A DNA stretch of 64,000 nt, from NCBI GenBank assembly GCA_004193555.1, contig RPGP01000040.1:873127-937126 (forward strand), given 5' to 3'. The notes beneath the pieces were generated by a model, which made no database searches, was not told the origin of the DNA, and worked only from the letters and a program-made list of their open reading frames with translations. The position numbers were made by a program, and so were the translations under genes. This document shows positions 519 through 13,048 of the stretch, in pieces. Origin of the DNA: Desulfobacteraceae bacterium Eth-SRB1. Lineage in GTDB: Bacteria > Desulfobacterota > Desulfobacteria > Desulfobacterales > ETH-SRB1. Positions within the stretch are counted from its first letter, which is position 1; each line of letters opens with the position of its first letter.

Positions 519-563
519 ATACACTAAATTACTGATGGAGGTGTCTCATTTTCATTGACACAT
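519..563 (+). repeat. Right terminal end of the IS3-type element
   Basis: The stretch ATACACTAAATTA is followed eight to ten bases later by GTGTCTCATTTTCATTGACA, which has the look of an IS3-family terminus, and GH26-like coding sequence begins immediately beyond it. A related end in the same orientation (ATACACTAAATTA, then GTGTCTCACTTATATTGGCA) is present at 9506-9550. Assignment as an IS end rests on position after the transposase relic and on this second copy. Confidence 0.6.
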
Positions 564-818
564 TCCGGTCGGATCATAAGAGGTGTTCGGAACAGACTCC
601 GCATTAGGACAAAAAACCCAGAGCACATTTTTTACATCCATATTTCTGAATATCGTAACAACATAGTGAAATATCTTTTTGTAAACAGTGGGACTTTGAG
701 GCCCGTAGTCGGTTTTTCCCATGCCCCAGTGGTAGCGCTCAATATTCATCTCGTGGGCAAATCGAATCATCAAGGGCCTGCCCCATGATTTTGCCTGCCT
801 TGCGAATTCAGTAATAGG
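563..818 (-). pseudogene. GH26 glycosidase (mannanase-type), internal 5' fragment
   Basis: Read on the minus strand, this fragment gives ITEFARQAKSWGRP, then LMIRFAHEMNIERYHWG and VKNVLWVFCPNAESVP. The RFAHEMN block is the family 26 motif whose Glu is the acid/base catalyst. The fragment has no start of its own: upstream codons come from the RAYT hairpin end, and downstream it stops inside the IS3-type end. It breaks off at SYDPTG, and the continuation (WNCAANFYPGDDYVDIVGI) is found on the plus strand at 9553. The nucleophile-bearing half is therefore separated by 9 kb and inverted. It is not functional. Confidence 0.75.
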
Positions 819-840
819 AAAAATGGGGTCAAGGAAAAAT

Positions 841-863
841 GGGGTCAAGTCTACTATTGACCC
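841..863 (+). repeat. Left REP-type hairpin end of the RAYT element
   Basis: GGGGTCAAGTCTAC followed by TATTGACCC forms a 7-bp stem (GGGTCAA/TTGACCC) around an 8-nt loop. Its inverse complement is the right end at 1851-1873, and a diverged solo copy is at 22241-22262. Confidence 0.75.
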
Positions 864-892
864 ATGTAAGATAAAATGTTATATATTACAGC

Positions 893-1863
893 ATGTCACG
901 TCCACTTAGAATAGAATATCCCGGAGCCTGGTATCATGTAATGAACCGTGGCAGGCGGTCTGAATCCATTTTTCGGATAAACATGATTATTTAATGTTTA
1001 TTGAACTGCTGATTGAACTATCTGAAATGTGTAATGTAAATGTAGCTGCATACTGTTTAATGACAAATCATTATCACATTCTGCTGCAAACACCCGATGG
1101 AAATATTTCAAGATGCATGAGGCATCTGAACAGCGTATATACCCAGAGATATAACAGAAGACATGGATTTGATGGTCAGCTTTTCAGAGGAAGGTACAAA
1201 TCGATTCTTGTCTGTAATGACAGCCATCTTCTGCAACTGGTGAGATATATACATAAGAACCCGTAAAAGCAGGTATGGTTAAAGATATGCCGGATTATAA
1301 ATGGAGCAGCACAAAGGTTATCTGTCATATGCGAAGAAGTGGGAATGGTTACACAAAGATTATATTATTTCCATGATAACCCCAAAAAAACGGGGCAGGC
1401 TGAAACCTTTTACTGAATTTATGCAAAAAGATGATTCAGAAGAGGTTACAAGGCTGTTTTCTTTAAAGAAACTCTCATCATTTTTTGGTCCGGAAAGTTT
1501 CATAACAGGAATAAAAGAAAATATTATTTTAAGAAAAAAAGCTATGAGGTTCCTGAATCAAAAAGTCTGGGTCCGACATCTGATTCAATCATTTCATCAG
1601 TGTGTGAACATTATCGTGTATCGTTTAATGAATTGTTGATAACAAGACGCGGGATTTTTAATGAACCTCGTAATATTGCAGTTTATCTATTACGTCAAAT
1701 ACGTGGTGAAAACCTTAATAACATAGGTGAACTGTTTAATATCAAAACATACAGCACAGTAAGCAGCATATTACGAAGAGTTTCGAGGCTTAAAAAATAT
1801 GACAAAAAAATTAAAAAACGGATAGGGAAAATTCAAGATAGTATTAATAAGGGTCAAAAGTAG
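893..1863 (+). pseudogene. REP-associated tyrosine transposase with DnaA-C-like tail, frameshifted
   Basis: The product would begin MSRPLRIEYPGAWYHVMNRG, the canonical start of TnpA_REP (Y1_Tnp) proteins, and it carries CLMTNHYHILLQT with the metal-binding HYH motif, then FRGRYKSILV with the region of the catalytic Tyr. The C-terminal part (VSFNELLITRRGIFNEPRN, then AVYLLRQIRGENLNNIGELF) is a DnaA domain IV-like helix-turn-helix often fused to RAYTs in deltaproteobacteria. The reading frame shifts at about 979, 1266, 1305 and again near 1530-1590, so at least four lesions inactivate it. The start codon ATG lies 30 bases inside the left hairpin. Confidence 0.85.
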
Positions 1864-2541
1864 ACTTGACCCCTTTTCTTCTTTCGAGTCATTTTCTATC
1901 AACATTAGTTTAAAATTTTTTCTGTCAACATAAAGGCTGCCACCCATATTTGTGGCTAAAATGTGACTTAAAATATTCCATGATTTACTAATGGTATTGT
2001 GATGCGGTGTTAGTTTGAATGCTTCTATGGTAGCTTCTCTTATTTTTTTTGTGCGCATATATTGAACACACAGATAATAAATAAACTCCATAAAACCCTT
2101 ATCTGTTTCAAAAAATGCAGTGTCTTTGCAAAGCAAACAATCCAAGTATTTTTCCCCAATTGACTCTATTCCAGAATGAAAATCTTCTTCTAAATTGTGA
2201 AGGCATACATTAATTGCTTCATGTACCTCTGGATCGTTCGTAGATGATAATTCAGGATATTTTTTTAACATTCGATGAACATGTGTAAATGCACTTACCA
2301 GTTGTTCGTGACCATGTTTTGTTACTTCTGGTGAATTCTCAATTATTAACTCTCTTATAAATTCTACATCATTGTCGTTCAAGTCGTTAAGTTTATAAAA
2401 GTCTCTTTGTTGGACAACGCCCATCAAATTTGGATTTATAATTTTATTATCACGTAGGCAATGAATCTTTTCATCTGTAGCCCAAGCTTTCAGATACTTT
2501 CTCCAAACATAATGATGTCTTCTCCTTTTATTAGAACTCAT
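1771..2541 (-). CDS. DUF4238 family protein, 3' end replaced by RAYT end (cassette gene)
   Basis: The protein begins MSSNKRRRHHYVWRKYLKAW. The early RHHYVWRxYLxxW block is the signature of the DUF4238 family, proteins of unknown biochemical role that often occur in variable genomic regions. ATG at 2541 is preferred to the longer open frame because it lies directly after the attC site at 2576-2707 and starts at the family motif. About 223 residues are native. From position 1873 onward the codons belong to the RAYT element, giving an artificial tail, so the C-terminus is truncated and activity is doubtful. It is the last gene of the minus-strand cassette array. Confidence 0.65.
   Translation of the reverse strand: MSSNKRRRHHYVWRKYLKAWATDEKIHCLRDNKIINPNLMGVVQQRDFYKLNDLNDNDVEFIRELIIENSPEVTKHGHEQLVSAFTHVHRMLKKYPELSSTNDPEVHEAINVCLHNLEEDFHSGIESIGEKYLDCLLCKDTAFFETDKGFMEFIYYLCVQYMRTKKIREATIEAFKLTPHHNTISKSWNILSHILATNMGGSLYVDRKNFKLMLIENDSKEEKGSSLLLTLINTILNFPYPFFNFFVIFFKPRNSS
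1851..1873 (-). repeat. Right REP-type hairpin end of the RAYT element
   Basis: GGGTCAAAAGTAGACTTGAC plus CCC is the inverted copy of 841-863 with one mismatch. It overlaps the stop codon of the transposase and replaces the natural 3' end of the neighbouring DUF4238 gene, whose frame runs through it to 1771. Confidence 0.75.
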
Positions 2542-2575
2542 ATTCTTCCAATTTTCTCGATAGCCAATGAGTGTG

Positions 2576-2707
2576 GCACAACGTAGAGCTGAGTGGCTGG
2601 GCAACGATAACCGAAAAGCTATGCTAAAGGTAAAAACTACCGGTCAAATACTTCCTTTCGAAAAGCGGCACGGCTTTGCCCAGTCCATCTCAAGCGCATG
2701 GTTCGCT
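2576..2707 (-). repeat. attC-like recombination site E
   Basis: On the minus strand the site opens with AGCGAAC and closes with GTTGTGC. The two arms pair over CTGGGCAA / TTGCCCAG, with unpaired extra bases in one arm, as expected for extrahelical bases. It follows the DUF262 gene and precedes the DUF4238 start by 34 bases, the usual cassette arrangement. Confidence 0.7.
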
Positions 2708-2716
2708 GATTATCCT

Positions 2717-4489
2717 TTAATTGTCAGCGGTTGCCTTAGTGTCAATTACTTCGAAATTAATGCCTGACAAGATGTCTCTTAATTTCTCTATTATGATGGA
2801 AACACGATCTTCTATAAACAGGTCAAGGGCATTTTCTGGCATACTCTCAAGCGTTGACCACTCAATCAGTTTGGAAGACAACAAGTGCGATTTAAGGACA
2901 TTTACAAAATTTGGATTTTGATTGTAGTCCCGGATATATATCAACGGATTCTGGTCGCTGATTTCAAGGTTTGTCAGTTGCGTAATATACGCAATGTTCA
3001 TAAGGCTATTATTTGAATGAGAATTCCTCCCTGGATTTTGAGTAATAAAATTAGAAGGAAAAACATGATGTAAATTTGGCTTGTCGGTAGAAAAGAAGAA
3101 GTTGTCGGCAATTACACTTCTATCTGTATACTTCCAGTCTTTAGGATTGTTGTTGGAGTATAGAGAAAGGATAGCTCTCGATAATCGACCTTTTGAGCTG
3201 TAAGATGAATTTCGTAGAACTTCTTTGTCGATTAAAAATCTATCAAAATTATATTCTTCACCTTTTTTCTCTTTATACAACAACGACAGATGGTCATTTA
3301 TGTCACCTGTATTGCTTAACAGGTCAGAATTGTGAAAACTGTTAAACCAAAAATATTTTTTCATGAAATCATAGTCTGGATTCTCATTTTTATAAAAATA
3401 ACAGGTGAGAGTTAAGTAGAAGTATCTGTAGGGAATAAGAGGTGGTCCCTTGATGTTTAAGGTGTTTTCAAAAAAATCAAATGTTTTGAGTACAGCATTT
3501 TTAGTGTCGTCCCAAATTGCCTCAACTTGTTCTGCTGTTAAATTGTTTAAATATGTTGGGGTAATATTCATTACACCCGATTTTTCGATGTTTTCTCGGA
3601 CAATCAAGGCGATAATTTGAAGATAATCAAAGTAGTCGATTTGTAAAAACTTACTATTATTTGTAGTTCTAAAATCGTCTATCAAGTCCCGAAGATAGAA
3701 ACCTTGGTTCCCGTTATGTTGAGGCCGGAAAGTTTTAGCAACCACAATGTCAAAAATATCTAAAGGCTTACCTGCCTGATTAATTCGTTCAAAAATCTGG
3801 CAGACCTCCGCGACCTTAATTCCTTTCAGCTCTATAAATGACAGTCTGTAGTTGTCCAAAACTTGTTTGATTCTTCTAAGCTCCACCCAAAATGGATGGT
3901 TATACTGTTGGTTCACCTCGGAATGATTAACAATTTGTTCTTGAACGGTGTCAAAATTTTCTTTTATGTTGATCAGCTTGACGATTAAGCCTGAGTCAAA
4001 TTTCTTTTTTCGTCCCGTGTTTCTTTTGAAAGTGCCATCTTTATCATCTATTTCGTCCCAGTACAAAAAACGCTTTTTATAAATTTCGTCGTCGGTTTCA
4101 TCTACATTTTCCATGGATAAATCCACATACAGTGAAGGGTCAAAATTATCTCTTCCCTCGATTGAGCCACCATATAATGAGGTTAGCAACGATGTAGTTC
4201 GTTGCTGACCATCTAAAAGATATTGAAATTCATTTGAAAAAGAATGGTTGTCGGTAATCTTATGGCCTCCGATATGCCTATGGTTTTGTAATTTAATGTC
4301 TGTCTTCCAAACAAGAATACTGCCAAGCGGGTAGAATTTATAAATGCTGTCCCACAATTTTTTTACATTCTCTTTTTCCCAAACCACTTCTCTCTGGAAT
4401 GTAGGAATCTGGTATGTAAGATTTTTGAGTTCATCAAGATATGTCGTAATGCCTTTATCTGTGGGTTTTATTCTATCCGTGAAATTCAT
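2717..4489 (-). CDS. DUF262 + HNH protein (GmrSD-like, single chain)
   Basis: This is a 590-residue protein. The N-terminal half is a ParB-like DUF262 domain with FQREVVW at residues 31-37 and the nucleotide-binding motif LLDGQQRTTSLL at about 91-102. The C-terminal part near residue 475 carries LHHVFPSNF followed by spaced Asn residues, resembling the HNH/DUF1524 nuclease domain. Fusions of these two domains resemble GmrSD type IV restriction enzymes, which use nucleotides and cut modified phage DNA. The role here is inferred from domains only. The gene is a complete cassette: an attC lies 10 bases beyond its stop and another ends 32 bases before its ATG. It is AT-rich relative to the core genes, which fits transfer. 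Confidence 0.8.
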   Translation of the reverse strand: MNFTDRIKPTDKGITTYLDELKNLTYQIPTFQREVVWEKENVKKLWDSIYKFYPLGSILVWKTDIKLQNHRHIGGHKITDNHSFSNEFQYLLDGQQRTTSLLTSLYGGSIEGRDNFDPSLYVDLSMENVDETDDEIYKKRFLYWDEIDDKDGTFKRNTGRKKKFDSGLIVKLINIKENFDTVQEQIVNHSEVNQQYNHPFWVELRRIKQVLDNYRLSFIELKGIKVAEVCQIFERINQAGKPLDIFDIVVAKTFRPQHNGNQGFYLRDLIDDFRTTNNSKFLQIDYFDYLQIIALIVRENIEKSGVMNITPTYLNNLTAEQVEAIWDDTKNAVLKTFDFFENTLNIKGPPLIPYRYFYLTLTCYFYKNENPDYDFMKKYFWFNSFHNSDLLSNTGDINDHLSLLYKEKKGEEYNFDRFLIDKEVLRNSSYSSKGRLSRAILSLYSNNNPKDWKYTDRSVIADNFFFSTDKPNLHHVFPSNFITQNPGRNSHSNNSLMNIAYITQLTNLEISDQNPLIYIRDYNQNPNFVNVLKSHLLSSKLIEWSTLESMPENALDLFIEDRVSIIIEKLRDILSGINFEVIDTKATADN

Positions 4490-4520
4490 GAGTACCTCAT
4501 TTTGTGGTTATCGTTGTGAC

Positions 4521-4620
4521 AGCGAACGCCTAAAATGAGCTGACACAAAAGCTGCTGAAATATTAGGTTTTACGAAAAATCGGCTCGGCTTTTGTGGTCA
4601 GCTCCATTTTTTTGTTGGGC
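4521..4620 (-). repeat. attC-like recombination site D
   Basis: On the minus strand it begins with GCCCAAC (consensus RYYYAAC) and ends with GTTCGCT. The arms GAGCTGACCACAAAAG and CTTTTGTGTCAGCTC pair fully except for one unpaired C, matching the extrahelical base that orients attC recombination. It lies between the lipoprotein gene and the DUF262 gene. This is the clearest of the five sites. Confidence 0.8.
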
Positions 4621-4679
4621 TTTCTTGTGGTTTGTGTAAAATCTTTAAAGGATGAAGACCCTTCGGTTTTAGAATTTAT

Positions 4680-5141
4680 TTATTTATTACATCTGTCAAA
4701 ACATTCATTCTTGGTGTAGTCAGTATATTTAAGGCATTTATTGTAACAATCATCAAATTCGGTTTGACTCGGGTCATTTCCGTAGGGTGAAAATGCAGAT
4801 CTGCATTTTAATGCAGCTGCCCGTCCGTTTAGCCAAGCTATATTTTTCCTTGCTAGTATCCTTATATATGTTTGATCCATTGTGCTGTCTAACATTGAAG
4901 AAGCTGTATCGATGATCGATTGTACCCGCGCAATTTCATTCCGGATCCATTGACATTGTTTTACTTTCTCTGCCTCAGAAGAGGGTAAATTACGGTCAAC
5001 AGAAAAATCAGTATAATGTGGTTGTTTCTTAGTTGCTTCTTGTCTTACCGGAGTTGTTTCCTGTCTTACCGGGGTTGTTGAGCATCCCAAGATTGGGCTA
5101 AAAAGTACAATTATCAATGCTATGAAGGCCATTCTTTTCAT
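4680..5141 (-). CDS. Small cysteine-rich lipoprotein with a duplicated heptapeptide
   Basis: The start at 5141 is chosen because it follows AAAGGAAAAATC and begins a type II signal peptide, MKRMAFIALIIVLFSPILGC, with a lipobox before Cys20. The mature protein begins with a tandem TTPVRQE/TTPVRQE repeat and ends in a Cys-rich segment (CYNKCLKYTDYTKNECFDRC) whose CxxxC spacing suggests disulfides. About 153 residues. No family was recognised. It is probably anchored in a membrane on the periplasmic side. There is no attC between it and the gene starting at 5613, so both may have travelled as one cassette; its own attC (4521-4620) follows. Confidence 0.65.
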   Translation of the reverse strand: MKRMAFIALIIVLFSPILGCSTTPVRQETTPVRQEATKKQPHYTDFSVDRNLPSSEAEKVKQCQWIRNEIARVQSIIDTASSMLDSTMDQTYIRILARKNIAWLNGRAAALKCRSAFSPYGNDPSQTEFDDCYNKCLKYTDYTKNECFDRCNK

Positions 5142-5259
5142 GATTTTTCCTTTATTCTCTTTGCAAAACCCGTTTTTACACAAACCGGTGGTAGAAACTT
5201 TATGTCATTCTGCTTATTCAGTATTTATTTGTCGAATTAAAGCTTTAATGTTTATGAAT

Positions 5260-5613
5260 TTAGCAAATTGAAAAAATTCTGAAGTATCGATATGATAGCT
5301 TTTTAATTTTTTTATATACTTGCCTATCTGACAATTCCGTGTGGTATAAATTGTCAAATTCGATTGTCGAATATGTAGCACATTGGGTAGAAAGAAATTG
5401 TCCCTTTTGAAGAGTATTAATTATTTGATCAAGGATTGATATCTTATTTTTTGTCTGTTCTTGATTGAATCGGACTTCATCTATTAAAGCATTCTTACAA
5501 TCTTTTCGTTCTTTACACTTTTTAATTATTGCTGAAAGCTCTGCAAAACCGAACCCTATAACAATACCTAATATCGTCCATGTTCCATTGTGATTTAATA
5601 TCTCAGTGCACAT
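5260..5613 (-). CDS. Small single-span membrane protein, hypothetical (cassette gene)
   Basis: This 117-residue protein has one hydrophobic stretch at about residues 12-30 (WTILGIVIGFGFAELSAII), followed by a charged, probably helical segment that would lie in the cytoplasm if the short N-terminus faces out. The ATG at 5613 lies 14 bases after the attC core GTTATGC, which is typical for the first gene of a cassette. No family was recognised. Similar short membrane-anchored proteins of unknown role are common in integron cassettes. Confidence 0.55.
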   Translation of the reverse strand: MCTEILNHNGTWTILGIVIGFGFAELSAIIKKCKERKDCKNALIDEVRFNQEQTKNKISILDQIINTLQKGQFLSTQCATYSTIEFDNLYHTELSDRQVYKKIKKLSYRYFRIFSIC

Positions 5614-5626
5614 AGAATTTTCCTTG

Positions 5627-5749
5627 GCATAACGTTAAGTTGAGGGGTCGGGGGCTTATGCCTACAACCTCCACAAAGTTAAAATTTATGTTAAAGCCAA
5701 AACCTTCGAGAGCCGCTCAGTAGCCCCCGATCCGCTCAAACGGTTTGTT
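5627..5749 (-). repeat. attC-like recombination site C
   Basis: Minus strand: starts AACAAACCGTTTGAGCGGAT and ends TCAACTTAACGTTATGC. The arms pair as GATCGGGGGCT / AGCCCCCGA with one unpaired A. The AACAAAnCG...CGTTATGC layout is close to Vibrio-type attC sites. It separates the HEPN-like gene from the small membrane protein gene. Confidence 0.8.
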
Positions 5750-5764
5750 CTGTATTGAGTCTTT

Positions 5765-6229
5765 TCATAATTTGATTTTTAACATGAGATCGAGATTCTC
5801 GTTCCAAAGTGTTCCAATCAGTAATTTGCAAAAATGAGCCAAATCATTCGGTTTCAGTTTAGATTCTCCTGGTAAAAATCTATCTAATCCATTATTCAAA
5901 ATTTGCCATTCTGCGGTAGTGATTGAAAATGAGGCTTCATGAGCCGCTCGATTCCTGATTTTTCTAAATTTATCTAAAATTTGGAATAGCGTGTCATCTA
6001 AAAAACTTAGCTCATTTAGCAAGGTTAGCTTAACTGAAAGTGTAAAATCACGGGTGTTTTTAGTTATTCTTTTTTTTCCATGCTTGCATTTTTTATCAAT
6101 AATACAATTTAGAAAAAGTTCTATATAACCATGGGCAATTATTACAAGAGATCGATGATGCTTTTCTACAGAAATTAACTCTTCAAAAAAAGCTTCAAGT
6201 ATATCTTTGTCACTCTTTGAATTTGCCAA
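5765..6229 (-). CDS. HEPN-like / MltR-type protein (cassette gene)
   Basis: This 154-residue, mostly helical protein contains RKIRNRAAHE at residues 89-98, in which R92 and H97 form the Rx4H motif of HEPN-fold proteins. The overall pattern (HGYIELFLNCII early, then the RNRAAH motif) resembles the MltR/DUF4145-type group. HEPN proteins often act as RNases in toxin-antitoxin and abortive infection systems, but MltR-like members are regulators, so the function remains open. A GGAGGTAC ribosome-binding site precedes the ATG. The gene lies between attC sites B and C and so forms a single-gene cassette. Confidence 0.6.
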   Translation of the reverse strand: MANSKSDKDILEAFFEELISVEKHHRSLVIIAHGYIELFLNCIIDKKCKHGKKRITKNTRDFTLSVKLTLLNELSFLDDTLFQILDKFRKIRNRAAHEASFSITTAEWQILNNGLDRFLPGESKLKPNDLAHFCKLLIGTLWNENLDLMLKIKL

Positions 6230-6253
6230 ATTTGTACCTCCGGTTATCCTGAT

Positions 6254-6315
6254 ACAGAACGTCGCTTTTCAGCGGGCGCGGCTTTTTGCGCTCCGCTGCA
6301 AAAGCCTTGTTATGC
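6254..6315 (-). repeat. attC-like recombination site B (short)
   Basis: Minus strand: GCATAACAAGGCTTTTGCAG at the start and CGCTGAAAAGCGACGTTCTG at the end. GCTTTTGCAGCGG pairs with CCGCTGAAAAGC leaving one unpaired G. At about 62 bp it is the shortest site of the array. The stop codon TAA of the upstream gene lies inside the opening GCATAAC, as is common for cassette genes. Confidence 0.8.
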
Positions 6316-6525
6316 ATTTATAATTCCATGTGAAATCAGATACTCGATCCCTTTTGGGGTTATACCATACCTGTTAATAATGTCTTTGATCATCAGGCCT
6401 TCGTTAATTGCTTTAGACATATATCTATCAAATGTCAGCCGATGCATGTCTGTATTTACAAGCATTGATTTAAGACTAATAACCTCATCAGGGTTATTGT
6501 TGAATGCTTCAGACACTGCTGTCAT
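6310..6525 (-). CDS. C-terminal winged-helix-like fragment, probably the shifted 3' part of the TIR gene
   Basis: Seventy-one residues follow the ATG at 6525, but the frame is open from 6606 and reads GTNPFKPLGESKPDRISDG upstream of this Met, which looks like native coding sequence. The C-terminal half (YGITPKGIEYLISHGIINA) resembles the end of a winged-helix domain. The TIR frame closes at 6594, only about 12 bases after this frame opens, so a single-base slip near 6600 would join the two into one protein of about 247 residues. Alternatively it is a separate small gene. No ribosome-binding site stands out at 6525. Confidence 0.5.
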   Translation of the reverse strand: MTAVSEAFNNNPDEVISLKSMLVNTDMHRLTFDRYMSKAINEGLMIKDIINRYGITPKGIEYLISHGIINA

Positions 6526-6593
6526 TACATGTTTGAGACCATCTGAGATCCTATCCGGTTTCGATTCGCCCAGCGGTTTAAAGGGATTGGTGC

Positions 6594-7052
6594 CTATTCC
6601 TGGCTTTCAAATAATGGAGAATTAAGAAGAGTCCTAAGTAGCTCATCAAGGCTGTATTCAACATCCTCATCTTTAGAAAAATCTATGTACAGTTTTGAAC
6701 CGAGAAACGTTGGGAGTTGTCCACCAGATCCTTGCCTAATAATTGGGATGACTTTATTACTATCAATTTTTTGTAATAAAGAGGAGGTCATAATCATTTT
6801 TTCGTAGCCTACTCCTCCCTCACCAGCATTAGCTTTCTCGACATATCGATTGGTGCAAATCATGAGCGCGAAATCAGATCTTGCAAGCTCCGTTTCCATG
6901 AAGTGAGGCAAGTCATCTCCCGGTTTCAAATCCCATTGATCAAGGACGGAATCAACGCCACGGTTTCGGAGAGTTGTAGCAAAATCCAATACCCAACCCT
7001 TATGTTCAGCGGAGTCATGTGAATATGAAATAAATACTCTAGGTGGTTTCAT
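6594..7052 (-). CDS. TIR/SEFIR domain protein (cassette gene)
   Basis: This 152-residue protein starts MKPPRVFISYSHDSAEHKGW, the SEFIR/TIR_2 signature. It continues with LRNRGVDSVLDQWDLKPGDD and an FALMICTNRYVEKAN strand, and ends with the conserved GSKLYIDF segment. TIR domains in bacteria can cleave NAD+ or produce nucleotide signals during phage defence; SEFIR members are less well characterised. Only the TIR domain is in this frame, and the expected C-terminal partner appears shifted (see 6310-6525). The ATG at 7052 lies 30 bases after attC site A, as expected for a cassette. Confidence 0.75.
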   Translation of the reverse strand: MKPPRVFISYSHDSAEHKGWVLDFATTLRNRGVDSVLDQWDLKPGDDLPHFMETELARSDFALMICTNRYVEKANAGEGGVGYEKMIMTSSLLQKIDSNKVIPIIRQGSGGQLPTFLGSKLYIDFSKDEDVEYSLDELLRTLLNSPLFESQE

Positions 7053-7081
7053 AAAATATTTCTGTTCCTACATGTGTTTTT

Positions 7082-7183
7082 GCATAACGGAAAGGTCAGC
7101 AGCGGGCCAAGGAATCGCGAATATGCACAAATTTTACGAAAAATGCCATCGCTTTCCCCGTCTGCTGCACTTAAAGGTTAGGA
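7082..7183 (-). repeat. attC-like recombination site A
   Basis: Minus strand: begins TCCTAACCTTTAAGTGCAGC and ends TGCTGACCTTTCCGTTATGC. CAGCAGACGGG pairs with CCCGCTGCTG with one unpaired A. The stop codon of the upstream cassette gene (TAA, 7178-7180) overlaps the opening TCCTAAC. Confidence 0.8.
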
Positions 7184-7470
7184 GCCGACAGCCCTGAGCG
7201 TAGGTACAGGGAGCACTTTGTCAATATAGAAACCATTTGTACAGCGGTAGATACCGATCTGCTGCGCGTCTTTGCACTTCGCTTTATCTCGATAGCGGAG
7301 ACTCCCATCGATTATTACTTCGGCAACAGGATCACCTGCCCTAGGGTAAAGGTTCTCGAAGAAGTAAGTGCGCTCAGCCAGATGCACGATTCCATCAGAA
7401 GTGATCACCGCCTTAGGGCTTGATGTCGTATGTGGTTGCACACCATCACGCCACTTGCATTCCTTGTCAA
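7178..7470 (-). CDS. Hypothetical cassette gene, 5' end removed by IS21
   Basis: About 97 native residues are readable, starting DKECKWRDGVQPHTTSSPKA and ending VLPVPTLRAVGS with its stop inside attC site A. Codons before 7470 come from the end of the IS21 element, so the true start is lost. The frame remains open into the IS, so a chimeric product from a GTG in the IS end is possible. There is no recognised family. It is the first preserved cassette of the array. Confidence 0.5.
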
Positions 7471-7524
7471 TGGACAATAATTTTGACCCACTACCGGACA
7501 ATAAAACTGACCCACCCCCTGCAC

Positions 7525-8268
7525 TTAGTTTAAATTGATTTTTTGTTTGAGCCGATAGCTTTCTCCACCCATCATAAAAATATGTGAATGATGGATAATG
7601 CGGTCTACAATCGGAACAGCCACATTGTCATCAAAGAAAAAGTCACCCCAGTTCGTAAAGTCCTTGTTTGTGGTGATAATAATAGAGCGATATTCATACA
7701 AAGCATTTATCAGCTGGAAGAAATTAAACATGCTTTGTTTGTTCATAGGCAGATATCCCAGCTCATCAATTACAAGAGTATCGAACTTTGATATTGTATT
7801 GATTTTCTTTTTCAATTCTCCTTTTGTCTCAGCAAGATCAAGCATCTCAATAAGTTCAAGGGCTGTAGTAAACAGAACCTCGTATCCGGCATGAACCGAT
7901 TTATAGCTGATACCGATGGCCAGATGAGTTTTGCCGACACCTGGAGGCCCGATAAAAACGATATTTTCACGGTTGTCGATATAAGAAAAATCAAGCAGCC
8001 GATTGATCTGTTTTTTTGTAATAGTAGTCTGAGATACAAAATCAAATTCTTCAATCTGTTTTTTAACAGGAAACCCGGCCCGTTTCATATTGAGATTAAA
8101 TCTGTTTTTATCCCTTTTACTCAGCTCATGGCTTACAAGCATATCAGCAAACTCCAGATACGAGGTTTCGTTATCTTCAGCCTGGCTAACCAGCATTTCC
8201 AGAGACTCTGCGATGGAGTTAAAACGCAAAGAGTTATATTTGTTTATGACTGTTTCAAATGTATTCAT
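7525..8268 (-). CDS. istB: IS21 helper ATPase IstB
   Basis: This 247-residue AAA+ protein has Walker A GPPGVGKTHLA at about residues 108-118 and Walker B LVIDELGYLP, with the DnaC/IstB-like pattern FFQLINALYEYRSIIITTN. It assembles on DNA and activates the IstA transposase. It appears intact, starts with ATG and overlaps the end of istA by 14 bases, the usual translational coupling of IS21. Confidence 0.92.
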   Translation of the reverse strand: MNTFETVINKYNSLRFNSIAESLEMLVSQAEDNETSYLEFADMLVSHELSKRDKNRFNLNMKRAGFPVKKQIEEFDFVSQTTITKKQINRLLDFSYIDNRENIVFIGPPGVGKTHLAIGISYKSVHAGYEVLFTTALELIEMLDLAETKGELKKKINTISKFDTLVIDELGYLPMNKQSMFNFFQLINALYEYRSIIITTNKDFTNWGDFFFDDNVAVPIVDRIIHHSHIFMMGGESYRLKQKINLN

Positions 8269-9390: not shown

Positions 9391-9505
9391 ACCTTGGTGA
9401 CTGAACCCTGGAACCATATATCTTATAACATTTGTTGCTTTGCTAACATGGGTTGCTATTGATGCATTCTTTAACATTTTATTTCTCCTTCCCGCCCTCT
9501 ATAAT
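9391..9505 (-). other. Junction segment with a short open frame
   Basis: On the minus strand a GGAGAAATAAA ribosome-binding-like motif precedes ATG at 9477 and the frame reads MLKNASIATHVSKATNVIRY before running into the istA relic. It looks like the start of another transposase-type gene fused to the IS21 remnant by a deletion, but the family was not recognised. Confidence 0.3.
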
Positions 9506-9550
9506 ATACACTAAATTATAGGTTGGGAAGTGTCTCACTTATATTGGCAC
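9506..9550 (+). repeat. Second IS3-type terminal end
   Basis: ATACACTAAATTA followed by GTGTCTCACTTATATTGGCA repeats the layout of the end at 519-563 in the same orientation, with several substitutions. GH26 coding sequence resumes directly after it. No transposase belonging to this end is left. Confidence 0.5.
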
Positions 9551-9552
9551 AG

Positions 9553-9977
9553 AGGGGACAGCCGGTTGGAATTGTGCAGCCAATTTTTACCCGGGTGACG
9601 ATTATGTCGACATAGTGGGAATAGATGGTTATAATTGGGGCACGACACAAACCAAAGAAAAGGATGGCTGGGAAAGCCAATGGAAATCTTTTGATGATAT
9701 CTTCAAGAATGCTCATGCTGAACTGGCAACCATAGCGCCCGGCAAACCCATCATCATCTTTGAGACAGCAAGTGTTATGCAGGGTGGAAACAAGAATAAA
9801 TGGATCAGGGATGCGCTGGCAACCACATGGGAGTGGGGTCTACGGGGGATCGTCTGGTTTCAGGTAAAGAAAAAGTTGGATTGGCGAATCAACAGCTATA
9901 ATGATATAGGATATATCGATATCATGAGAAACAATAATTTTCGTTCCCATGACTGGATAAGGAGTCTGACCAGATGA
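9553..9977 (+). pseudogene. GH26 glycosidase, 3' half
   Basis: The frame reads WNCAANFYPGDDYVDIVGI, then DGYNWGTTQTKEKDGWESQW and KPIIIFETASVMQGG, ending WIRSLTR. FETAS contains the Glu expected to be the GH26 catalytic nucleophile, in the strand KPIIIFE. The fragment lacks a start and the acid/base half, which is the inverted piece at 563-818. Its stop overlaps the ATG of the next gene (ATGA), showing that the intact gene was once cotranscribed with the downstream small genes. Confidence 0.78.
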
Positions 9978-10210
9978 GAAAAGAAGAATTGCTCAAATGC
10001 GTCCAGGAAAGCATAAGACGGGAAGAAAGTGCCACTACCGTTTACCTTGGGCATTTAAAGGCGCTTATTTTACGAAGCGGCCTCTCTGAATCGGACATTG
10101 CGGAAGCAAGAAAAACTATCGAATTTCTCGTTAAATCCAATATGGCACACAAGAAATTCATGGAGAACATGCTAAACAGGATTGAAGAGGACCCGAAAGA
10201 TGTTTACTAA
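9974..10210 (+). CDS. Small helical ferritin-like / rubrerythrin-type protein
   Basis: This 78-residue protein is entirely helical and charged. It has RREESATTVYLGHL with a Glu preceding a possible metal-ligand helix, then KKFMENMLNRIEED. The pattern of E..AxxxY and an H-containing second helix resembles half of a rubrerythrin-like four-helix bundle, but not all iron ligands are present. It overlaps the GH26 stop by 4 bases and the next gene's ATG by 11, indicating an operon. The function is unknown; pairing with the next gene to form one bundle is a guess. Confidence 0.6.
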   Translation: MRKEELLKCVQESIRREESATTVYLGHLKALILRSGLSESDIAEARKTIEFLVKSNMAHKKFMENMLNRIEEDPKDVY

Positions 10211-10394
10211 AGAGACCTTTATTGACTATTTTCAGCAGATACTCATCCTGGAAAAGGAAATGGAAAAGGGTTATCTACATATCCTTGGCAGTATAGCCCA
10301 TCCGGAATACAAAGCAATTTTCAAACGTTTAGCGAATGAAGAGCGATTCCATCAATCGAAAGTTCAAGAATTAATCGATCTTTTTCAAAAATAA
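10200..10394 (+). CDS. Small helical ferritin-like protein, partner of the preceding gene
   Basis: The ATG at 10200 overlaps the end of the preceding gene and gives 64 residues: MFTKETFIDYFQQILILEKE, then HILGSIAHPEYKAIFKRLAN with EERFHQ near the end. The ExxxxxGYLHIL and EERFHQSKV helices look like the E...ExxH iron-binding helices of ferritin-like proteins. A longer TTG start at 10182 is less likely. The two adjacent half-size genes could form a heteromeric bundle. Confidence 0.6.
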   Translation: MFTKETFIDYFQQILILEKEMEKGYLHILGSIAHPEYKAIFKRLANEERFHQSKVQELIDLFQK

Positions 10395-10441
10395 AACCTG
10401 CTTTGAAAGCCATTTGAGATGGTTGACTTACAATTGACGTT

Positions 10442-10696
10442 ATGCATGATTTATGGATAGTAGCTCTTTCGGTTTTGCTTCTGAACCTTCCGTTTGGCTT
10501 CTGGCGAGCAGGGGTCAAGAAATTTTCCCTGCCCTGGTTTCTGGCAGTGCACATTCCCGTTCCTTTCGTCATCTGTATTCGTCTTTCGGCAGGAATTGGA
10601 TGGCATTTTACTACATTTCTGGTACTGATAAGCACATTTTTAATCGGACAGTTCCTCTGGGGACATGGTGGTGACATGGGCGTCCGTTCGCAGTAA
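10442..10696 (+). CDS. Small integral membrane protein, conserved hypothetical
   Basis: The 84 residues form two to three membrane spans: LWIVALSVLLLNLPFGFWRA, then FLAVHIPVPFVICIRL and FTTFLVLISTFLIGQFLWG. The LNLPFGFWRxGxxKFSxxWFLAVHxxxP pattern is seen in small membrane proteins of deltaproteobacteria and related groups whose role is unknown. The gene ends within sequence directly preceding the group II intron, so its last residues may have been altered by that insertion. Confidence 0.6.
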   Translation: MHDLWIVALSVLLLNLPFGFWRAGVKKFSLPWFLAVHIPVPFVICIRLSAGIGWHFTTFLVLISTFLIGQFLWGHGGDMGVRSQ

Positions 10697-10951
10697 CAAC
10701 TAATTATCTTGCGGGTTAAAGTCCCGCCCAAGGAATTATCCGTTCACCTTGGTAGTTCAAGGGAGTGGCGTCTGAGTAATCAGGGGTCGTAAGTTCCCAA
10801 CTGTCAAAGCCGCAGGCCGCAACGAAAGTGAACCTATGTGTAGCCTAATCTATTGGAGGTGCCGACCCTGTGGACGTAAGGGGAAGGCTGCTACTCATCG
10901 ACATAGATAACGGAAGCAATCGGTAAGACCTTCCGGGGTAGCAGGGGTGGC

Positions 10952-11170
10952 ATGTGGCGGAAGATAATCAGTCCAGTGCTGGAAATCCAATTCAGTGATG
11001 ATAGAGAGTCATCAACCAGTGAGTATAAGGAAACGAAATCTTGCTGGTCTGAACTGGAAGGAACCCTGCTTTGTTCATGCAACCAAAGAGTGGAGGATGA
11101 GGGGATTGCTGCTGTGCTACTAACCCCGGAAAACATCAGGACACTACAGAGGAAGCTTTACCGCAAGGCC
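10952..11170 (+). pseudogene. Group II intron reverse transcriptase, N-terminal remnant
   Basis: The frame carries LTPENIRTLQRKLYRKAKQ, the N-terminal RT-0-like block of group II intron proteins, after which the sequence jumps to the region before domain V. The catalytic YADD block, maturase and endonuclease domains are absent, so more than 400 residues were deleted internally. Confidence 0.65.
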
Positions 11171-11228
11171 AAGCAGGACTCCAGCAGGCTGGACGAATGC
11201 GCATGCCTTATAGTGAAGAACATCGGAA

Positions 11229-11260
11229 AGCCGTGTGCGGGAAAACCGCATGCACGGTTT
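11229..11260 (+). ncRNA. Group II intron domain V
   Basis: AGCCGTGTGCGGGAAAACCG followed by CATGCACGGTTT folds into a long stem with a GAAA tetraloop. This is the catalytic core hairpin of group II introns, and it is intact apart from usual variation. Confidence 0.8.
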
Positions 11261-11488
11261 GATGAGGGAGGATTGGTAAAGGTTGCTATGGCACGACCAT
11301 TTAGGCACCGTCAAACGAAAGGGACGGAAACGGATAAGTCAAGCCTACGGTAGCGATAGCCAGCTCTCTACTCTACCCTACTTTGGCCCTTTTATAAAGC
11401 TACTCGTAACTACTCAGGTAGATAGACTGAAGGCTGAAGACTGTGTTAGGAAAAACGGTAATACTGCACACTTTGAAGCTATGTTTGG

Positions 11489-11516
11489 TGTAAAAAGCTG
11501 CTGTTTTTACGCCAAA
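11489..11516. terminator. Stem-loop downstream of the outer-membrane barrel gene
   Basis: GGTGTAAAAA and TTTTTACGCC flank GCTGCTG and pair with one mismatch, giving A- and T-rich sides in both directions. It lies about 40-65 bases beyond the stop of the minus-strand barrel gene at 11555. The rest of the gap between intron and gene holds no other feature. Confidence 0.4.
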
Positions 11517-11554
11517 GCGCCGCAATAGTGTTTCCAACATTCTTGATGGTTGAC

Positions 11555-13048
11555 CTACATGCTCCATTTGATGGATGTAACAAGCCTGTCGTTATTACGC
11601 CATCTGCCGAAATATGTATCCAGCGGCCCGTCAAAAAATTCAAAATCAAGGGTAAATACAAGCCCCGACATAATACGCAGAGAGGTGCCGATTCGCTGGA
11701 AATGCGCGTTGTCAGAGAGGGTGAAATCCGAGAGATAATGCAGTGAAAGATCATCCGTGGCGGTAACAAGGATATTGGCTATAAGATCGTTTCGACCGAT
11801 ACGCGTATATCTGGAACTCAGAATGTAATCAGTGGCATTCTGCTTAGCAGTAATAACCTCACCGGCATATTCCAGTAAAATATCAATTTTTTCCAGGCCC
11901 AGACTTGAGGCCAGATTTTCACTGGTATGACAAAACCCTCCTACATAGTCAATATAGCTGTCGTCATAATTGTGGATGCTGTGACTGTAGAGCGCTTCTC
12001 CGTGGAATTCCGTATTTTTCCAGGTTGTTGAAAACCCTCCTGCCATCTGGTACACATTGGGTGTATCCTTGATGAGTGTCGCGATATCCTTAGTGTCTTC
12101 CAGTTTGATGACCGGGTAAAAGGCTGGGCCGTGATAGGCCGATACAAAGGTGTCCCATATTCCCATTGATTTTTTGACGCGACCGAACCATCCCCAGTCT
12201 TTGGGGTCGTTTTCGGGCAGTTCTTCCCTGACTGCAACGGACTTGCCGCTGTCGACAAGATCAGCGAACCGGTCATTTTCCATGAGTCTGTCCATATAGT
12301 AATAAAGGATTTCAAGCATTTCTTCGATCGATCCTGGGACAAAGTTATATCCGGACGGAATGTCGGAAACGATCCAGCGAGATCCGGGTGCCGGGATTTT
12401 TTTTTCCTGGTAAAACGGAAGAAGTGCTCCCGTATAGACGGTATCTTTGTGTGAATAATCGCAGGCCAGCTGCCAGGAACCTGTCTGAATCGGATTCACC
12501 GGATCATTCAGGTCTGCGGATGTGTAACGGTTAGCAGGTGAATAAAGCGTCGATATCCCGTTGTTAAAGATCTTTTTCCCGATGGTAAATTCGGCAGCGC
12601 CGTTTGAAAGATTCAAAAAGCTCTCATTAAGTTCAGCGTACCTTTTCTGGTTGTCGCGATCTGTCATTAAGTGGGTTACACCGCTGCAGGCGTCGTCCCG
12701 GGTTCCGGCCTCAAACCAGCCAGCGGCATGAAAACTCCACCAGTCTTTGCCCGTCCATGAGGACCAGTTTGCACGCATTTCCCCGACAAGACGGTCATCA
12801 TCAACGTCCGCATAAGTTTTAAGAGAGTCAATGGCCGGGTCGAAGAAGTATGATGTCCGAAGTTCCAGATCCGCACGGAAGTGATCTGCCAATTGCTGGG
12901 CAATATCCGATGATGAATCGGTTGGTGTTTTGTCCGTTTCCAGATAAACATCCAGTTCATTCAGGATATCCGGATCACCGGCTGACGCACATGCGCTCCA
13001 CCCGCCCACGGTCAGCATCAAAACTGCGGCAACAATCATTTTTTTCAT
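11555..13048 (-). CDS. Outer-membrane beta-barrel protein (DUF1302-like)
   Basis: This 497-residue protein has a signal peptide (MKKMIVAAVLMLTVGGWSAC, cut near ASA) and a body of alternating amphipathic strands rich in aromatic residues, ending with ...SIKWSM. Patterns such as GEMRANWSSWTG and FRADLELRTSYFF early and DNAHFQRIGTSLRIMSGLVF near the C-terminus fit a porin-like barrel. It lies 9 bases after the exporter gene and is probably the outer-membrane partner of that RND protein and the LolA-like protein upstream. Substrate unknown. Confidence 0.7.
   Translation of the reverse strand: MKKMIVAAVLMLTVGGWSACASAGDPDILNELDVYLETDKTPTDSSSDIAQQLADHFRADLELRTSYFFDPAIDSLKTYADVDDDRLVGEMRANWSSWTGKDWWSFHAAGWFEAGTRDDACSGVTHLMTDRDNQKRYAELNESFLNLSNGAAEFTIGKKIFNNGISTLYSPANRYTSADLNDPVNPIQTGSWQLACDYSHKDTVYTGALLPFYQEKKIPAPGSRWIVSDIPSGYNFVPGSIEEMLEILYYYMDRLMENDRFADLVDSGKSVAVREELPENDPKDWGWFGRVKKSMGIWDTFVSAYHGPAFYPVIKLEDTKDIATLIKDTPNVYQMAGGFSTTWKNTEFHGEALYSHSIHNYDDSYIDYVGGFCHTSENLASSLGLEKIDILLEYAGEVITAKQNATDYILSSRYTRIGRNDLIANILVTATDDLSLHYLSDFTLSDNAHFQRIGTSLRIMSGLVFTLDFEFFDGPLDTYFGRWRNNDRLVTSIKWSM

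Follow-up and report, generated by a model that had tools for sequence, protein, structure and literature searches.

A probable decayed integron fragment carrying antiphage-type cassettes in Desulfobacteraceae bacterium Eth-SRB1

We describe here a short array of gene cassettes in the genome of Desulfobacteraceae bacterium Eth-SRB1 (3.34 Mb in 52 contigs). The array lies near the start of a 64,000-nucleotide stretch of contig RPGP01000040.1, which we refer to as the window (G000:C40:873127-937126). Our analysis makes it highly probable that the array is a decayed piece of a chromosomal integron, namely a cluster of attC sites lacking an integron integrase (CALIN), that its cargo is largely of antiphage type, and that one of its genes, coding for a DUF262/HNH protein, likely specifies a type IV restriction enzyme. 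Profile searches class four of the seven array genes as defence-type. Two of these four are broken and neither an integrase nor a platform promoter is attached to the array, which implies that the array is a remnant in decay and not a functioning reservoir.

The array was delineated with a script that scores AAC...GTT core sites together with arm pairing and that was run over the regions around the window and around the other integrases of the genome. Five attC sites were found in the window within 4.6 kb (2576-7183), forming a minus-strand array, where two or more sites suffice to define an array or CALIN. At the same threshold the other ~58 kb of the window contains a single isolated attC-like hit (39603) that resembles a false positive, 80 kb of flanking sequence contains none, and three mononucleotide shuffles of the first 10 kb gave no equally good match. 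The ends of the cassettes point the same way: in the four complete cassettes the cassette start (GTTNNNN) is complementary to the cassette's own R'' end at 7/7 positions for the SEFIR, HEPN and DUF262 cassettes and at 5/7 for the two-gene cassette. Read along the minus strand from 7501 to 1771, the array consists of an open reading frame (ORF) of 107 amino acids (aa) without a start, a SEFIR/TIR gene, a HEPN gene, the two-gene cassette, the DUF262/HNH gene and a DUF4238 gene (Table 1). A first-pass annotation of this DNA had placed the cassettes at 1771-7052; the array is real, but it reaches ~7501, and 1771-1883 is the end of an IS200-type element and not cassette DNA. Since the interval 5150-5225 contains neither a hairpin nor core sites, an attC site between the lipoprotein ORF and the 117-aa ORF is ruled out and these two ORFs constitute one cassette. 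This membrane protein and lipoprotein cassette (4680-5613), lying between the HEPN and DUF262 genes, had no defence match in any library used. An Rfam scan gave no attC-like family, its sole match being a group II intron at 10.7-11.4 kb, and promoter-like sites in the region are not in excess of those in shuffles.

Table 1. Coordinates of the array and adjoining elements in the window
Feature	Position	Strand	Remarks
107-aa ORF, 5'-most cassette	7178..7501	-	start lost to IS21 element; no family
attC, R'' TCCTAAC, R' GTTATGC	7082..7183	-	
SEFIR/TIR domain, 152 aa, first part of frame-broken ~248-aa gene	6594..7052	-	bSEFIR 244 bits; PDB 5y8e E 1.8e-25
SEFIR gene C-terminal part, other frame, winged-helix-like	6310..6606	-	56% identity over 99 aa to residues 150-248 of WP_172694205.1
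attC, R'' GCATAAC, R' GTTCTGT	6254..6315	-	z -2.75; SEFIR cassette ends 7/7
HEPN-type protein, DUF4145, motif RNRAAH, 154 aa	5765..6229	-	55% relative keeps RNRAAHE
attC, R'' ACAGAAC, R' GTTATGC	5627..5753	-	HEPN cassette ends 7/7
117-aa ORF	5260..5613	-	one predicted membrane helix (inspection); no family
Lipoprotein-like ORF	4680..5138	-	LGCS motif (inspection); shares cassette with 117-aa ORF; no family
attC, R'' GCCCAAC, R' GTTCGCT	4521..4620	-	z -3.17
DUF262/HNH single-chain GmrSD-family protein, 590 aa, intact	2717..4489	-	profile, fold and motif evidence
attC, R'' AGCGAAC, R' GTTGTGC	2576..2707	-	DUF262 cassette ends 7/7
DUF4238 gene, C-terminus lost	1884..2541	-	full-length relative WP_174051702.1, itself annotated at 2275-3282
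IS200-type element (Y1 transposase)	831..1883	+	33-nt inverted ends; Y1_Tnp 42.6 bits; truncates DUF4238; own ORF frame-broken
IS21 istB	7525-8268		254 bits; IS21 element cuts 5'-most cassette

No integrase adjoins the array, which thus lacks the adjacent divergent intI and the attI of a complete integron. The nearest intI (TIGR02249, 427 bits) ends ~7.5 kb past the truncated DUF4238 gene. Its transcription runs leftwards, so that a canonical array belonging to it would read rightwards, opposite to the observed polarity. With no adjoining integrase and the wrong polarity relative to the nearest one, the array is a CALIN by the usual definition.

Searches by profile and by fold upheld the domain calls of the first-pass annotation for all four of the defence-type proteins that it had named, and placed none of them in an unrelated housekeeping family. 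The DUF262/HNH protein, described there as a single-chain protein resembling GmrSD, bears this out most fully. It matches Pfam GmrSD_N (PF03235) at 104.4 bits against a cut-off of 33.2, and aligns end to end with the PADLOC profile PDC-M55C (134.6 bits), the M55C-type protein being the only one of PDC-M55 to be matched; there is no Pfam DUF1524 match. The motifs DGQQR (D93-R97) and HHxFP (H474-H475-x-F-P) are invariant in 34 aligned sequences. Among solved structures BrxU is the sole relevant relative by sequence (E 3e-10), and an AlphaFold2 model built with the 34 aligned sequences (predicted local distance difference test, pLDDT, 80.5) is aligned by VIA-align to BrxU with a Z of 17.4 over 493 residues, ahead of SspE (9.9) and DndI (8.6), with concordant results from Foldseek. 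Residues 433-553 of the model fit HNH nuclease domains (Cas9 HNH, Z ~5). The TM-scores against BrxU are low (0.37) and the root-mean-square deviation is large, as would be expected if the relative placement of the two domains differs. With a DUF262 domain bearing DGQQR, a C-terminal HNH domain and this predicted whole-chain fold, the protein is a member of the GmrSD family, and the modelled structure makes a strong case for a role in defence. The most likely product of the cassette is a type IV restriction enzyme, modification-dependent and made of a single chain. Nucleotide binding and the recognition of modified phage DNA would fall to its N-terminal DUF262 domain, and cleavage of that DNA to its C-terminal HNH domain. 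A phosphorothioate-linked role like that of SspE or DndI is not favored because the genome contains no dndC.

The TIR/SEFIR protein was correctly recognized by its domain (Pfam TIR_2 79 bits, SEFIR 49.7 bits), but the ORF is not a complete gene, the frame being broken near 6595-6610. An intact Aliarcobacter plasmid protein (WP_172694205.1; 248 aa, 80% identical) aligns to 7052-6597 and then, in another frame, to 6606-6310, and a 71-aa ORF at 6310-6525 is the C-terminal end of the same gene. The PADLOC bSEFIR match extends over only residues 35-187 of the 412-residue profile and thus falls short of the full-length architecture. The closest solved structure is PDB 5y8e, and the catalytic Glu84 (E84) is invariant in ten sequences. 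Relatives of the gene are found on plasmids (156 records), on viral contigs, and in an eight-attC array from the same family of bacteria. The sequence makes a strong case for defence, and the product would, to judge from its family, formerly have been an NAD+-consuming suicide effector triggered by infection.

The HEPN-like protein does contain the reported RNRAAH, which conforms to the Rx4-6H motif, and the product may be an RNase, as its family suggests; the defence reading of this sequence is weak. Its relatives are rare, occurring in 2 of 144 genomes including that of the window, and none were found on viral contigs or plasmids. The DUF4238 gene belongs to its assigned family (Pfam 29.0 bits, cut-off 27) but is incomplete: the ORF runs into the inverted end of the IS200-type element at 1883, its final ~37 residues are transposon-derived, and the full-length relative extends well past the point of truncation. 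It occurs in 1 of 144 genomes (the window's own), with no relatives on viral contigs. One member of the DUF4238 family gave strong resistance to T7 (PMC9122126), and by analogy the defence reading is moderate, with a product that would have acted as a single-gene antiphage protein.

The DUF262/HNH gene is also found as a cassette elsewhere. One scan of 84,980 species genomes returned 70 relatives, 61 of them with a usable gene. An attC-like site lies within 150 nt of the gene in 18 of these 61 loci, where about one would be expected from the density of such sites elsewhere in the same loci; 15 are downstream and 6 upstream (~0.6 expected each). In 12 of the 15 downstream-attC loci the start codon is closely preceded by an exact 7-base complement of R'', as against 0.8% of control windows, and the 12 include loci from Bacteroidota, Chlorobiota, Pseudomonadota (Thiomargarita), a Desulfuromonas and a Candidatus Altiarchaeales contig. 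A further locus from WOR-3 has 6/7 complementarity and attC sites on both sides. In a Desulfobulbaceae genome (L123) the first cassette next to an intact integron integrase, arranged divergently as in canonical integrons, carries an 87%-identical DUF262/HNH gene; like the cassette in the window it starts with GTTCGCT and ends with AGCGAAC, the two cassettes being 77% identical in DNA sequence. The complementarity scan scored another AAC as R'' at this locus, and the shared ends were read from the sequence itself. A copy in Electrothrix gigas retains the sequence upstream of the cassette start and has no integrase beside it.

In the tree of the DUF262/HNH gene the phyla are intermingled at well-supported forks. 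Only 2 of 14 tested cassette-bearing genomes have an integron integrase over the curated cut-off, and the 12 with none include Bacteroidota isolates and the altiarchaeal assembly; this leaves many copies as lone cassettes or CALINs, unless the genomes are incomplete. We judge the chances to be about even that this type IV gene is a stand-alone cassette with matched ends that has spread through several bacterial phyla and an archaeal contig, often alone and with no recognizable integrase. If so, it would be among the most widely dispersed single cassettes known, and its movement in genomes without integrases would call for an explanation. In its intact gene the cassette offers a concrete means of testing whether type IV restriction passes between phyla in this form, as an integron cassette. 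We found no account of a wide dispersal of this gene as a cassette in the literature searched. Integrons are very rare in Bacteroidota (PMC9024848). Five Bacteroidota copies (L063, L064, L065, L066, L068) are followed by an attC-like site of ~130 nt, and the genomes of three of these (L063, L066, L068) have no integron integrase over the cut-off, their recombinase matches lacking the middle of the integron-integrase profile. The archaeal copy (L096 5900-7950), on a 1.39-Mb contig of Candidatus Altiarchaeales IMC4, has complementary cassette ends and one attC site; no integron integrase over the cut-off is present on the contig, and a tyrosine recombinase lies ~5 kb upstream.

How far the cargo can be called defensive depends on what cassettes in general contain. 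The defence look of the array could arise by chance if cassettes are mobile single genes drawn at random, roughly one in ten of which is antiphage, and we regard this as a serious contender that falls somewhat short of an even chance. In V. cholerae ~16 of 179 cassettes are active, roughly 10% (PMC12409362); at that base rate the probability of four or more defence genes among seven is, by our own arithmetic and uncorrected for the choice of this array by its look, ~0.003. Against coincidence also stands a same-family genome (L048; G014:C182), in which an eight-attC array is likewise rich in defence-type genes: it contains NERD, PD-T7-4, trypsin-like, SEFIR, SIR2 and DeoR-C genes, the last three, so far as the scan can tell, in a single long cassette, and PADLOC matches a full-length PD-T7-4 (299 bits), SEFIR (223 bits) and SIR2. 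In favor of coincidence, PADLOC scanning of three of the seven cassette proteins in the same genome's second array (L052) gave one weak match, to a DrmC-like PLD protein (32.7 bits).

Several further observations weigh against our interpretation. The defence clustering may be chance because the cargo of three other arrays with the same DUF262 gene (L071, L095, L097) is, on inspection, mostly unrelated to defence. Only 4/7 array genes are defence-like in the first place: the first-pass description of the cargo as mostly defence genes holds for these four, but not for the two-gene cassette, and two of the four are broken. The HEPN protein barely exceeds the DUF4145 threshold (23.8 bits against 23.1), and its AlphaFold2 model from a single sequence, all-helical with a pLDDT of 53, was not used. 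The attC sites come from our own script rather than from IntegronFinder. Lastly, the SEFIR frame break could be an assembly error; the long housekeeping ORFs of the window (ClpB-, IF-2- and PNPase-like) are intact, and a high rate of assembly errors is therefore not an obvious cause. We accept that the array contains defence-type cassettes and do not assert enrichment, because the array was picked for its look, the three L052 proteins scanned gave one weak match and the other DUF262 arrays are, on inspection, not defence-rich.

It is improbable that the genes serve stress dormancy or a toxin-type stabilization of the array, with HEPN and SEFIR acting as toxins, rather than phage defence. Toxin-antitoxin cassettes stabilize integrons, which counts in favor of such a role. 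A dormancy function has also been proposed for HEPN domains in integron cassettes (Anantharaman 2013, PMC3710099). However, the HEPN and SEFIR cassettes here are without an antitoxin partner, the DUF262/HNH protein is predicted to fold like type IV restriction enzymes, and the SEFIR and DUF4238 families have antiphage members (PMC9122126). That the attC-like sites are ordinary terminator hairpins within a normal defence island is scarcely credible, since, although terminators also form hairpins after genes and such genes do occur in defence islands, the cassette ends are complementary both here and in the relatives, one relative directly adjoins an integron integrase, and the region contains one terminator-like site, fewer than its shuffles.

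We retain the interpretation of the array as a decayed integron fragment with largely antiphage-type cargo. Its cassettes would have been captured singly, through the action of an integron integrase on attC sites folded into hairpins; these sites and the matching cassette ends are still visible. Little or no expression is to be expected at the present location, except possibly from the DUF262 and HEPN cassettes, because two of the genes (SEFIR and DUF4238) are damaged, the array is bordered by IS21 and IS200-type insertions, and there is no adjacent integron promoter.

A 2.7-kb inverted repeat brackets the array (window 9431-12114 and L019 19113-16478, the latter corresponding to G000:C40:869604-872239), the copies being 91% identical with 146 gap positions and the left copy degenerate. 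Given this repeat and a polarity that is the reverse of what the nearest integrase would dictate, the array has probably been flipped by recombination between the ~2.7-kb copies; a flip between them would give the canonical polarity relative to that integrase. An IS3-type element interrupts a gene for a family 26 glycoside hydrolase (window 552-848 on the minus strand and 1-545; L019 18560-19030 and 19040-20000), and the C-terminal part of this gene occurs a second time inside the right-hand repeat at 9540-9977. The group II intron domains occupy 10718-11376 of the window (Rfam RF02005 52 bits, RF00029 49.8 bits), with no obvious long reverse-transcriptase ORF. In all, the genome holds five integron integrases over the TIGR02249 cut-off (C40:866291-867523, C1:450107-451390, C29:72491-73429, C1:3178-4125 and C28:756-1691). 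Those on C40 and at 450 kb of C1 are 410-427 aa long and have a ~100-aa N-terminal extension with a second SAM-like domain. An IS91-type (Y2) transposase (L019 14917-16086) directly adjoins the C40 integrase, and a BrxC/BrxD-like ATPase (L052 17106-18344, minus strand, 83.7 bits) is located just past this genome's second integron integrase.

The individual proteins resemble known defence systems to differing degrees. The DUF262/HNH protein shares with the GmrSD family (BrxU, SspE, GmrSD) a single chain with an N-terminal DUF262 DGQQR motif, a C-terminal HNH HHxFP motif and, in the model, the whole-chain fold of BrxU. It differs from BrxU in that the two are only 16% identical and in standing alone in its cassette, within an array that has no BREX or Ssp partner. 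The SEFIR protein resembles bSEFIR of PADLOC and the bacterial SEFIR of PDB 5y8e in its SEFIR/TIR domain and invariant Glu84, whereas its gene is frame-broken, has a short winged-helix-like domain as its C-terminal half and covers the profile only in part. HEPN cassettes in integrons were reported in 2013 (Anantharaman 2013, PMC3710099), and the protein here is likewise a DUF4145-type HEPN in a cassette with an RNRAAH motif, as for the integron-cassette HEPN of PDB 3jrt; it has no sequence match to solved structures. Nor does it match PD-T7-4, of which the clear cassette is instead in array L048. The DUF4238 protein is from the same Pfam family as the single-gene system of P2-like prophages (PMC9122126), but the match is weak and the gene is truncated by a transposon.

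Integrons that store defence genes are already known. Archaeal integrons with restriction-type cassettes were described in 2022 (PMC9668308), and integrons as stores of antiphage genes, among them streamlined type IV enzymes, were published in 2025 (Darracq, Kieffer, Getz; summarized in PMC12409362). Our array is a further, decayed example, and the spread of its DUF262/HNH cassette is unusually wide. The broader proposal of the first-pass annotation, that integrons act as reservoirs of mobile defence genes, is favored by the L048 array and by the occurrence of the DUF262/HNH cassette across phyla, but the array at hand has itself decayed. The observations indicate that stores of this kind decay in situ, through insertions and frame breaks. 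As summarized in PMC12409362, the sedentary chromosomal integrons (Darracq, Getz 2025) and the mobile integrons with phage-resistance cassettes (Kieffer 2025) share with the array single-gene antiphage-type cassettes between attC sites, here in the chromosome. They differ from it in that ours, read from sequence, is a short integrase-less remnant with two of its four defence-type genes broken, in a sulfate-reducer-type lineage outside Vibrio. Antiphage integron stores are thereby extended from Vibrio and mobile integrons to a lineage of sulfate-reducer-type anaerobes.

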